Below, piece by piece: positions 20,131-43,981 of a DNA stretch of 64,000 nucleotides. Under the pieces are notes generated by a model. The model saw only the letters and a list, made by a program, of their open reading frames with translations. It was not told where the DNA came from and searched no databases. The DNA is from Aedoeadaptatus urinae (GTDB lineage Bacteria > Bacillota > Clostridia > Tissierellales > Peptoniphilaceae), in the NCBI RefSeq assembly GCF_900155585.1, contig NZ_LT707415.1, positions 62,001 through 126,000 of the forward strand, read 5' to 3'. Both the position numbers and the translations under genes were made by a program. How positions within the stretch are numbered: position 1 is the first letter of the stretch; each line of letters opens with the position of its first letter.

Positions 20131-20397
20131 GCCATGCTAGATGGGGAGTTAGCGGCACCCTGTAACTTGTAATCCGCTACAACAAGATTGAATCCCCGAT
20201 CCAGCGCATTTTTTTTGCGGTCTGCCCGGAAAAAGTGATGTTGATGAGTGGGTCCTACGCAATAAGCCCTTGTGAACCGTGTCAGATCTTGACGGAAGCA
20301 GCACTAAGCAAGTTCGCTTATGTGACGTAGACTCGCCTACTCTGAGTTAACTCTTTCGGTAACGCGTGGAAAAAATGTGCAAAGTCGGGTGCATGGC
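20131..20397 (+). ncRNA. ffs: Signal recognition particle RNA, long Gram-positive type
   Basis: About 267 bases. The 5' end GCCATGCTAGATGGGGAG and the 3' GTGCATGGC close the molecule. GGAGTTAGCGG...CCGCTACAAC matches the Alu-type domain of Bacillus/Clostridium SRP RNA. The Ffh-binding helix 8 is seen as GTCAGATCTTGACGGAAGCAG near 20280-20300. With Ffh it forms the particle that targets nascent membrane proteins to FtsY. It lies 10 bases after the tRNA-Ser, which suggests processing from a joint transcript. Ends are estimated from pairing. Confidence 0.93.
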
Positions 20398-41202: not shown

Positions 41203-41273
41203 ATTATACTTTCAAGGCAAGTTCTTCGCAATGCAGCCCCGAACGTGCTATACTTTTGACAGGAGGGATGGCT
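41203..41273. repeat. Right copy of the duplicated divergent promoter region
   Basis: Partner of 40078-40148. It holds a plus-strand promoter (TTCGCA 41225-41230, 18 bases, TATACT 41249-41254) for the pentapeptide gene, and a minus-strand promoter (TTGCGA/TATAAT, 17-base spacer, 41203-41231) that could drive the insert genes. Confidence 0.85.
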
Positions 41274-41882
41274 ATGGAAGAAAGAAAAATGAACTATAAA
41301 GATCAAAACCTGACGGGAAAAGATTTCAGCAATCAGGATTTGTCCGGCGCGGATTTTTCCGGCAGCGATTTATCCCACGCCTGGTTCGACCACGCCGTCT
41401 TAAAGGGCGCGGACTTGTCCCGCTGCAACTTACAGGAAGTGAATTTCAGAAACGCCGATTTGAGGGGCGCGAACCTGAGCGGCGCCTATCTCTTCGGCGC
41501 CGTCTTGGAAAATGCCCTCTTAGACGATGTGATCACCGACGAGGACACGCAGTTTTTCCGCCTCCACTGTCCGGAAGAGGGCGCCTTTATCGGCTACAAG
41601 AGATGTTATAACCACCGACTCGTCACGCTCTACATTCCCGCCGATGCGGCACGCACCTCCGCCACCATGAACTCGTGCCGCTGCGACAAGGCCTATGTGG
41701 TGTCCGTTACGGATTTCGCCGGCAAGGAACATTTCAGCGACGCCGTCAGTTTAATCGACGATGATTTTATTTATAAACCCCGCACCATGATGTATGCCGG
41801 CAATTTCAATCCCGACCGCTGGCGGGAATCCACCGGCGGCATCCATTTCTGGTTGACGAAAGAAGAAGCCTTCGCCTACTGA
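41274..41882 (+). CDS. Pentapeptide-repeat protein with a C-terminal DUF5758-like domain
   Basis: 202 residues. Residues about 10-85 are pentapeptide repeats of the A(D/N)LxX type (LTGKDFSNQDLSGADFSGSD, then GADLSRCNLQEVNFRNADL), which fold into a right-handed quadrilateral helix. The C-terminal half has YKRCYNHRLVTLYIPADAARTSATMNSCRCDKA in part (key: RCYNHRLV, SATMNSCRCDKA), matching my memory of DUF5758. Function is unknown; some pentapeptide proteins mimic DNA and protect gyrase. The start is the ATG at 41274, six bases after GGAGGG. A terminator follows. Confidence 0.88.
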   Translation: MEERKMNYKDQNLTGKDFSNQDLSGADFSGSDLSHAWFDHAVLKGADLSRCNLQEVNFRNADLRGANLSGAYLFGAVLENALLDDVITDEDTQFFRLHCPEEGAFIGYKRCYNHRLVTLYIPADAARTSATMNSCRCDKAYVVSVTDFAGKEHFSDAVSLIDDDFIYKPRTMMYAGNFNPDRWRESTGGIHFWLTKEEAFAY

Positions 41883-41902: not shown

Positions 41903-41936
41903 AAAACGACGGACCTTTCGGTTCCGTCGTTTCTTT
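41903..41936. terminator. Bidirectional terminator between the pentapeptide gene and yitT-like gene
   Basis: AAACGACGGA pairs with TCCGTCGTTT around ACC-TTTC-GGT, with A-run before and T-run after. Confidence 0.88.
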
Positions 41937-42592
41937 TATGCACTCTTTTCTACCGTTCCCTGGCTCACTTGCCATGCGGGTGCTTTCATCTTTAACTCGA
42001 ATTGACCCACTAAGTAAGACGAGATAATCGTCGTCATAAATGAGAAGATCAGTCGAGTCGGTGCGATGTAGCTCAAGGACAGGGCCAGCACCACGGCGTC
42101 GGAAATAAAGTAGGCGCGAGAAATGGGCCACTTCATTTTTTTCGAGATCACCATGGCCAGGGCGTCGTCGCCGCCGGCACAGCCCCCGGCCGTGACGGCG
42201 ATACCGCAGCCGCAGCCGATAAAGATCCCGCCGGCGATGGCGGCGAGAAAGGGCAGGTGGTAGAGATTGGGAAGCACCGGGCCGATAAAGTTAAAGATCC
42301 AATAGAAAATGGAAAAGGCCACGGTGGCTACGCCGGACTTCTTCAGGAAACGGGTTCCCAGCATAGAAAAGCCCAAGGCGTAGCAAATTCCGTCTAACAC
42401 CGGAGATACATAGGCCAGGTTTAAGCCGACGACTTTCTTTAAAAACAGACTCATACCCAAGACACCGCCTTCGGTGATTTGGGATGGCTCGTGGACATTG
42501 ACCACGCCGAAAGCCATAATGGCACAACCTAGCAGGATTTTGAAAAAATCTTTTTTCTTCAGTTCAAGGGGTCTCAGCAAATGACTGAGCAT
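41936..42592 (-). CDS. YitT/DUF161-family membrane protein
   Basis: 218 residues with about five membrane segments. FFKILLGCAIMAFGVVNV at the start, ITEGGVLGMSLFL in the first loop and GCGIAVTAGGCAGGDDALAMVISKK in the middle (key: GGCAGGDD) are features of the YitT/DUF161 family. There is no DUF2179 C-terminal domain. The transported or sensed substrate is unknown. I start at the ATG at 42592, with AGGAGTG upstream. A roughly 255-base structured leader with a terminator just before the ribosome site suggests control by attenuation. Confidence 0.87.
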   Translation of the reverse strand: MLSHLLRPLELKKKDFFKILLGCAIMAFGVVNVHEPSQITEGGVLGMSLFLKKVVGLNLAYVSPVLDGICYALGFSMLGTRFLKKSGVATVAFSIFYWIFNFIGPVLPNLYHLPFLAAIAGGIFIGCGCGIAVTAGGCAGGDDALAMVISKKMKWPISRAYFISDAVVLALSLSYIAPTRLIFSFMTTIISSYLVGQFELKMKAPAWQVSQGTVEKSA

Positions 42593-42594
42593 AA

Positions 42595-42847
42595 ATGTCA
42601 CTCCTAATTTGGCGATTAAGAGAACCAAAAAAAGACTGCCGTCTTAGGTTCTCCTAAATTCGCAATCTTGGATGGTGTCGATGCTTTTTGTTTTGCTGAT
42701 TTTTTCTTATAAAAACTCTGAGCGGGGGTGTGCTTAACGGCTCGAAATGTCCCACATCAGGCACTCCTCGAACACCCATCGCACACCCTGCATCAGATAA
42801 AAACTACCGACTAAAATCGGTAACCACCGTAATCAAACAGTACTACT
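42595..42847 (-). promoter_or_regulatory. Long structured 5' leader of the YitT-family gene (candidate riboswitch or attenuator)
   Basis: Between the promoter and the ATG at 42592 the minus strand forms several helices. First TACCGA-TTTTAG-TCGGTA (42808-42825 region) with a T-run. Then a rod closed by GGGTGTGC (42781-42788 complement) with GCACACCC (42726-42733 complement), extended by TCTGA with TCAGA and with inner pairings, ending in GAGTTTTT. Last, AAGAC-GGCA-GTCTT followed by seven T (42627-42645), nested in GAGAACC/GGTTCTC (42620-42653). No protein-coding frame here is convincing. I could not match it to a named riboswitch class. Confidence 0.6.
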
Positions 42848-42853
42848 GGGATG

Positions 42854-42882
42854 ATTATACCACAGTTCGCTCGACTATTCAA
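42854..42882 (-). promoter_or_regulatory. Promoter of the YitT-family leader transcript
   Basis: On the minus strand TTGAAT (42877-42882), 17 bases, TATAAT (42854-42859). It overlaps the 3' end of the class V aminotransferase gene. Confidence 0.8.
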
Positions 42883-43981
42883 TCACTTTTAATACGTCAA
42901 GTACTCGATCGATCTCTTCCTCTGTATTAAAGTAGGAAGGCGTCAGGCGGCACAGTCCCGATTCCTTCGTGTGAAGGTATTCGTGGAGCAGGGGCGCACA
43001 GTGGTAGCCCGGCCGCGTGGCGATGTCTTCTTCCTGAAGGAGCATGGCAAGCTCTTGACTGCTCATGCCGTCTTTTAAAATGCTCACGCAGGCGGTGCCC
43101 GGGTGCGAGGGATAGAAAATCCTGTAGCCCTCCAGCTCATAGAGGCCGTCTAAGAGGCGCTTGAAGATTTTATTTTTCTTTTCGTAATAGCTGTCCTCGG
43201 ACACGAAGGAGGCGCCTTCCGCCAGACCGCAAAAGCCGTGGACATTGGCCGTGCCCGCTTCCCAGCAGACGGGCTTTTCGTGAGGCATGGCGTGATTGAA
43301 GCTGTCGATGCCGCTGCCCCCATGGGTCAGTGGCGGCATGTCGATGTCCTTGCCGTAGAAAAAGCCGCCGGTGCCCATGGGGCCGTAAAGGGATTTGTGC
43401 CCGGCAAAGCAGTAGACCAGCTTGTCCGTCCACTTTTCCGACAGATCCACTTTAATCTGTCCCAGTGCCTGTGCGCCGTCGATAACCAAAAAGAGATCGT
43501 GGGCCTTGGCAAAGTCCAAGACGCCGTCGAAATCCGTGACGCTGCCCACCACATTGGAGGCGTGGGAAATGACGATGGCCTTGGTGTTGGGTTTTAAAAA
43601 TTTATCCAGGTAATTTAAATCCGGTTCGTAATCGTCGTTTAAGGGAAGAAAATCCAAGTCGCAGCCCGTGGCGTAAAGGGGTCTTAGGACGGAATTGTGT
43701 TCCATCCTCGAGGTGATCACGTGATCTTCTTTTCTGATCAGGCCGTGAACGGCGATGTTCAGGCTTTCCGTGACGCCGCTATTCAGCGCGATGGTCGGTT
43801 CCGAATGAAGAAGGGCCGCCATGTTTTTCCGCGCCTTTCTCAGGGCGTGGTAGGAGCGCTGCGCCCATTCGTGGCTGCCTCTTCCGGGATTGCCGTAGCC
43901 TTCCGTGAGCCCCGCATAGACGGCCTTTGCCACGGCTTCGGGCTTAATCGCCGTCGTGGCGCCGTTGTCTAAATAAATCAT
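42875..43981 (-). CDS. Cysteine desulfurase-like class V aminotransferase
   Basis: 368 residues, PLP-dependent. MIYLDNGATTAIKPEAV and YGNPGRGSHEWA form the N-terminal substrate region, LVIDGAQALGQ carries the PLP-binding Asp, and FAGHKSLYGPMGTGG the Schiff-base Lys. IATRPGYHCAPLLHEYL holds the catalytic Cys, as in the SufS-like 'cysteine desulfurase family' group. It would take sulfur (or selenium) from cysteine (or selenocysteine). The ATG overlaps the DUF3343 stop (ATGA), so the two are coupled. No SufU/IscU gene is nearby, which favours a specialised sulfur or selenium route. Confidence 0.92.
   Translation of the reverse strand: MIYLDNGATTAIKPEAVAKAVYAGLTEGYGNPGRGSHEWAQRSYHALRKARKNMAALLHSEPTIALNSGVTESLNIAVHGLIRKEDHVITSRMEHNSVLRPLYATGCDLDFLPLNDDYEPDLNYLDKFLKPNTKAIVISHASNVVGSVTDFDGVLDFAKAHDLFLVIDGAQALGQIKVDLSEKWTDKLVYCFAGHKSLYGPMGTGGFFYGKDIDMPPLTHGGSGIDSFNHAMPHEKPVCWEAGTANVHGFCGLAEGASFVSEDSYYEKKNKIFKRLLDGLYELEGYRIFYPSHPGTACVSILKDGMSSQELAMLLQEEDIATRPGYHCAPLLHEYLHTKESGLCRLTPSYFNTEEEIDRVLDVLKVIE

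Follow-up and report, generated by a model that had tools for sequence, protein, structure and literature searches.

The described systems closest to the locus studied here are transcriptional riboswitches, two structured small RNAs, 6S RNA and the raiA motif (ModT RNA), and activators with MerR and GyrI-like domains, which we take to be of the BmrR type. GyrI-like domains bind drug-like molecules. The raiA RNA was first proposed as a riboswitch, and complementation then excluded a cis role, according to the available part of PMC11706538. Our literature search found no paper joining yitT and a riboswitch. Term searching gave no yitT, Peptoniphil-, Anaerococcus, Finegoldia, or COG1284 in the main text of four discovery papers (PMC11109978, PMC8632094, PMC6429828, and PMC2864571); the available part of PMC7266159 held no yitT, and nothing related was found in the accessible portions of the riboswitch literature on Peptoniphilus and Anaerococcus. 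Here, we consider it likely, from sequence comparison, that the leader of one short-YitT gene is a cis-acting, signal-sensing RNA and hence an orphan riboswitch candidate.

The window, by which we mean the whole 64-kb stretch of DNA analyzed, carries the element entirely on the minus strand in the order promoter, leader, Shine-Dalgarno sequence, and ATG, between a cysteine-desulfurase-like gene (42875 to 43981) and a gene for a short YitT-family protein (Table 1). The initial annotation had described a consensus-like promoter followed by about 255 untranslated bases, and both were found, the leader lying between this promoter and the ATG at 42592. Taken by itself, a promoter scan of the sequence was no better than chance (2 found versus 1.7 expected), and neither was a simple terminator scan (3 found versus 2.5 expected), which flagged the P2 hairpin with the U5 run and two sites within yitT and missed the yitT-proximal terminator. 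The P2 hairpin together with the invariant U5 (42802 to 42825, minus strand) resembles a weak intrinsic terminator and could be a pause site. At the Rfam gathering score, the whole window contained SRP RNA and two tRNAs and nothing else; the bacterial large SRP RNA (RF01854, 194.6 bits) lies beside a tRNA at 20132 to 20396 on the plus strand. Directly 5′ of the leader, the cysteine-desulfurase-like gene (EF2568-like, under the NCBIfam cutoff) is accompanied by a gene for a small Se/S-carrier-like protein (PF11823; 42875 to 44226 for the two, minus strand), and a pentapeptide-repeat protein with a DUF5758 domain is encoded convergently with yitT (41256 to 41882, plus strand). Among named relatives, Aedoeadaptatus pacaensis is the nearest, at a protein identity of 95%.

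Table 1. Positions of promoter, leader RNA, and gene features in the window
Feature	Position	Strand	Basis
Promoter TTGAAT-17-TATAAT with extended TG	42854..42882	-	promoter scan
Transcript start, estimated	~42847	-	inferred from promoter position
Conserved RNA core (aptamer-like domain), 170 nt	42661..42830	-	covariance model, 170.8 bits here
P1 5′ strand CGGUGGU, partner ACCAUCC at 42676-42670	42823..42829	-	4 pairs counted, 94.5% of cells paired
P1 3′ strand ACCAUCC	42670..42676	-	alignment
P2 hairpin UACCGA-UUUUAG-UCGGUA	42805..42822	-	92.1% of cells paired; both-side changes in 3/6 pairs
GUUUUU, five U invariant	42799..42804	-	alignment
P4 UCUGA/UCAGA (42797-42793 with 42721-42717), closes variable arm	42717..42797	-	99% paired, without covariation
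Rod GGGTGTGC/GCACACCC, 8 pairs, inside variable arm	42788-42781 with 42733-42726	-	
Apical loop UGAUGU, invariant	42754..42759	-	proposed pseudoknot with GCAUCG 42684-42679
GCAUCG, proposed pseudoknot partner of apical loop UGAUGU	42679..42684	-	
P5 hairpin GUUUUUAUAAGAAAAAAUC (GUUUUUAYAAGAAAAAAU)	42698..42716	-	99.2% of cells paired; U-A to C-G in 4/41 distinct rows
Predicted intrinsic terminator S1: AAGAUUGC (42669-42662) with GCAGUCUU (42639-42632), inner UUAGG/CCUAA, T7 42633-42627	42627..42669	-	z -4.2
S2 5′ strand UUAGGAGAACC; possible partner GGUUCUCUUAA (42626-42616) in an alternative helix of 11 pairs	42647..42657	-	
S2 3′ strand; CUCUUAA can instead pair with ribosome site, 8-pair helix CUCUUAAU/AUUAGGAG	42616..42626	-	
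Shine-Dalgarno AGGAG	42601..42605	-	read from sequence
Short YitT-family membrane protein gene, 218 aa from ATG 42592	41936..42592	-	PF02588

Leader DNA was present in all eight genomes of the genus, our own counted, the other seven showing 80 to 97% identity over the matched part. All 15 yitT relatives taken from named genomes (Aedoeadaptatus, Urinicoccus, Anaerococcus, and species filed as Peptoniphilus) likewise carry the RNA upstream. With 17 sequences as input, namely, the window, genome G007, and these fifteen loci, a covariance model recovered exactly one copy per genome in 42 of the 130 family genomes, in 14 of 39 genera, at 59 to 193 bits under stricter filters with which weak copies can be lost. 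Across the class, where seven candidates per genome were scored and weak copies can again be lost, 7 of 391 genomes matched, all from the same family. An exact pattern, which misses family members in which the pattern has changed, matched 5 of 398 phylum genomes, only our own being real by inspection (the reversed control gave 1 match), and 44 of 249 order genomes, comprising the 42 known ones and two chance-like ones (G042 and G947). Of 90 viral-contig stretches, we inspected by eye the ones that a loose motif filter let through, and none was real. Neither the class covariance search, the phylum and order pattern searches, nor the viral contigs yielded a real copy outside the family. We regard the leader as a candidate new RNA that is absent from Rfam 15 and whose conservation extends over part of a single family of anaerobes.

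The RNA is closely tied to one gene. Short yitT is next downstream on the same strand in 41 of the 42 copies, the last (L056, genome G112) being cut by a contig end. With the downstream gene defined as the longest open reading frame (ORF) starting within 700 nt, BLAST showed it to encode a YitT homologue at 40 of the 42 loci; at L042 (G003) the ORF script chose another frame, and yitT lies just downstream by coordinates. All 42 RNA-bearing genomes fall among the 51 of 130 family genomes with a short YitT, whereas some PF02588 protein occurs in 127 of 130. In the nine short-YitT family genomes without the RNA (G039, G041, G078 to G081, and G087 to G089), the upstream regions lack the strings TTTTTATCTG and CTGATGTG. 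The upstream ORFs of 37 loci fell into 21 BLAST clusters, these ORFs being crudely called and some of them spurious; loci L025 and L043 represent one genome. The protein encoded in the window matches PF02588 at 122.6 bits (cutoff, 24.3; 1.8e-35), and its AlphaFold model is all-helical with a mean pLDDT of 82. A fold search of this model against the PDB gave 0 of 247 matches at an E value of ≤0.001, and a sequence search against the PDB gave none at ≤1. A tree of short-YitT proteins was made from 48 sequences, comprising 31 of the 42 RNA-linked proteins and 17 RNA-less ones, among which were two of the nine that the family contains. In this tree, the RNA-linked proteins make up one side of a branch with support of 100/97, present in 100% of 200 bootstrap trees. 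YitT mutations occur among many others in drug-selected Mycoplasma in the available parts of PMC10240068 and PMC13148045, an observation too weak to serve as evidence here.

The tie to short yitT bears on whether the RNA acts in cis or works in trans as a structured small RNA of the 6S or raiA/ModT kind, ending by chance at the terminator before yitT. Its own promoter and terminator, its single copy per genome, and the raiA precedent of a riboswitch proposal later overturned (PMC11706538, available part) are what a trans-acting RNA might show. However, the RNA stays with short yitT while genes further upstream change, and the only 6S RNA match of its own genome (RF00013, 72.1 bits) is on another contig. 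No raiA RNA (RF03072) was found in that genome (G000) and none over the cutoff in 31 genomes, the weaker matches in 10 of the 31 all lying away from the places of the leader RNA. We regard a trans-acting RNA as unlikely. The initial annotation had left the choice between riboswitch and small RNA undecided; because short yitT follows in nearly every copy while the genes further upstream vary, a riboswitch-like leader acting in cis is favored and a free small RNA less so.

The leader of about 255 nt has a predicted folding energy of -83.4 kcal/mol (z, -4.57), equaled by none of 200 shuffles, and a 186-nt part of it reaches a z of -3.50, again with none of 200 shuffles as good. A covariation check on orthologous leaders had been suggested at the outset, and covariation was found. 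We counted 55 hand-drawn pairs on a MAFFT alignment (A5) made without structure and containing 42 rows, 41 of them distinct, and compared them with shuffled alignments and with a slid control in which partners were moved by 1 to 3 columns. Both sides had changed in 27 of the 55 pairs, versus 22.2 ± 1.4 in shuffles (1 of 500) and at most 18 in slid controls; 85.3% of cells were paired, versus 78.6% and at most 50.7%; cells changed on both sides numbered 195, versus 100.8 ± 8.1 (0 of 500) and at most 117; the covariation score was 0.203 versus 0.111 shuffled (0 of 500); and further pair types, at 83 versus 75.1 ± 3.6 (13 of 500), were only modestly above shuffles, none of these shuffle figures being a probability because the structure was partly drawn from the same sequences and the rows are related. 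Of the 27 pairs with both sides changed, 22 lie in helices 5 to 7 of the variable arm, which are paired in 64 to 82% of cells on this structure-blind alignment; three lie in P2 and one each in P1 and P5. There is too little variation in the pseudoknot UGAUGU/GCAUC[A/G], in P4 and P3, and in most of P5 for covariation to speak for or against these elements; UGAUGU/GCAUCG is paired in 99.6% of cells yet is invariant except for UA/UG, which leaves it without covariation evidence. This comparison shows a conserved folded core with a covarying arm.

The eight-pair rod reported earlier is present inside this arm. The T-run after it (GTTTTT) is also there, but it is no terminator, because it forms one arm of the conserved P5 hairpin, in which U-A pairs change to C-G. 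The other GUUUUU, that between P2 and P4, is a candidate helix or triple-helix strand that may form a tertiary contact with the A-rich stretch before GCAUC. In the G007 leader (L040), the P1 5′ strand can be tied up by a perfect hairpin at the 5′ end, AACCACCGUAA/UUACGGUGGUU, a possible competing state. The leader might be read by a protein, as an antiterminator or attenuator target, rather than by a small molecule, and a conserved RNA with a terminator upstream of one gene would fit such a reading as well. Most protein-binding leaders, however, are smaller than the ~170 nt found here, where long invariant stretches alternate with internal loops, and a search for linked regulators of the MerR-like kind gave none at the 42 loci. 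A protein-read leader is improbable in our view.

The leader could also belong to a known riboswitch class and have diverged so far that it passes unnoticed, since covariance models can miss such members. However, the leader matched no Rfam 15 family at the gathering cutoff and had no Rfam match at an E value of ≤5, in line with the earlier statement that it could not be matched to the fluoride, guanidine, Mn, preQ1, THF, or SAM classes, and at the same threshold the 14 matches in 13 related loci (12 genomes) were chance ones, all of them outside the RNA. Given how well the core is conserved within the family, we find a diverged known class very unlikely. Ribosome-mediated attenuation via a leader peptide is disfavored and scarcely credible, since short ORFs behind loose Shine-Dalgarno-like strings occur in 15 of 42 leaders but 27 have none, and those present share position and peptide only among close relatives.

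A cis-acting switch also calls attention to the region between core and gene. An intrinsic terminator with an AAGAC/GTCTT stem and T7 had been described here; the T7 (42633 to 42627) stands, but the conserved stem is instead AAGATTGC/GCAGTCTT, with eight pairs enclosing TTAGG/CCTAA. AAGAC/GTCTT is possible in this locus and in close relatives, and AAGAC is absent from distant ones, e.g., L044, L045, and L053. The predicted terminator begins right after P1, the closing stem of the core. A U-run lies within 60 nt of the core in 39 of 42 copies (L043 and L062 have none, and L056 is cut), and in 37 of these 39 testable copies the terminator z is below -1.5, a threshold of our own choice; the exceptions, L047 (z, -0.2) and L050 (z, -0.7), each have only a 4-pair helix at the terminator. 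Terminator pairs changed on both sides in L060 and L063, and partner changes include GCAAUCUU in L049, L053, and L068.

Both strands of the alternative helix GAGAACC/GGTTCTC noted earlier are likewise present before the ribosome site. Without a control in each case, sequence between the terminator arms can pair with sequence after the U-run (GAGAACC/GGUUCUC, UUACGACC/GGUCGUAA, and CGACCGAC/GUUGGUCG), the longest ungapped S2-type helix has at least 7 pairs in 25 of 39 copies, at varying places, and the S2 3′ side can alternatively pair near the Shine-Dalgarno sequence in many copies. Transcription reaches the S2 3′ strand only once the U-run has been passed, so that S2 cannot by itself keep termination from occurring. 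An extended P1, which would compete with the terminator 5′ strand as an antiterminator, did not stand out from shuffles (mean z, -0.05; 1 of 34 distinct copies at P ≤ 0.05), and a link from P1 to the terminator by this route was not supported.

In our preferred reading of a cis-acting RNA, the core (P1, the U/A-rich helices, and the apical-loop pseudoknot) would sense a signal. In one state, AAGAUUGC would pair with GCAGUCUU and transcription would stop, and any read-through RNA would have its ribosome site masked; in the other, S2 would form and the ribosome site would be freed. The leader joins a covarying structured domain, a position upstream of a gene on the same strand, and an expression platform by prediction, and it probably switches the short-YitT gene on or off in response to a signal. 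The riboswitch-like reading of the initial annotation, supported by both the Rfam and the covariation tests, remains that of a candidate.

The nature of the signal may be reflected in relatives that lack the RNA. A divergent MerR-like gene lies upstream in 9 of 28 RNA-less short-yitT relatives (L201, L202, L204, L209, L213, L222, L227, L229, and L230), versus 0 of 42 RNA-bearing loci. The search used three of the nine regulator proteins as queries and covered 28 of 29 RNA-less relatives, leaving out L221 at a contig end and including L208 with 154 nt upstream only. Five of the nine proteins were scanned against Pfam, and all five matched MerR and GyrI-like domains at an E value of ≤0.001, one GyrI-like match being just under the domain cutoff (25.5 versus 26 bits). 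These neighbors hint at a foreign small molecule as the signal, and induction by a foreign compound is a reasonable guess. By analogy with MerR/GyrI-like activators, the most likely sign would be that the ligand turns the gene on. More speculatively, and with considerable doubt, the leader may represent a riboswitch class of its own, one in which direct sensing of a foreign or toxic small molecule turns on a short-YitT membrane protein, as an RNA counterpart of these drug-sensing activators.

Since the RNA is tied to one gene, the identity of its ligand would suggest a role for short YitT proteins. The regulators beside RNA-less relatives make foreign small molecules a testable hint, and the 42 natural variants allow probing and mutagenesis to be planned directly. 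Among the described systems, 6S RNA shares with the leader a rod-like arm and an intergenic setting, but the 6S match of this genome is at another place. The raiA motif (ModT RNA) shares a length of about 200 nt, a complex fold, and occurrence in Bacillota, whereas RF03072 has no match over the cutoff in 31 genomes and none in this genome, and the leader RNA stays with yitT. Transcriptional riboswitches share the promoter, the conserved folded core, and the terminator and ribosome-site helices before one gene, and differ in that the leader is without a matching Rfam class. The BmrR-type activators, with the GyrI-like domain scanned in five of nine, stand divergently upstream of 9 of 28 RNA-less short-yitT relatives; there the regulator is a protein, whereas at our locus the corresponding part may be played by an RNA.
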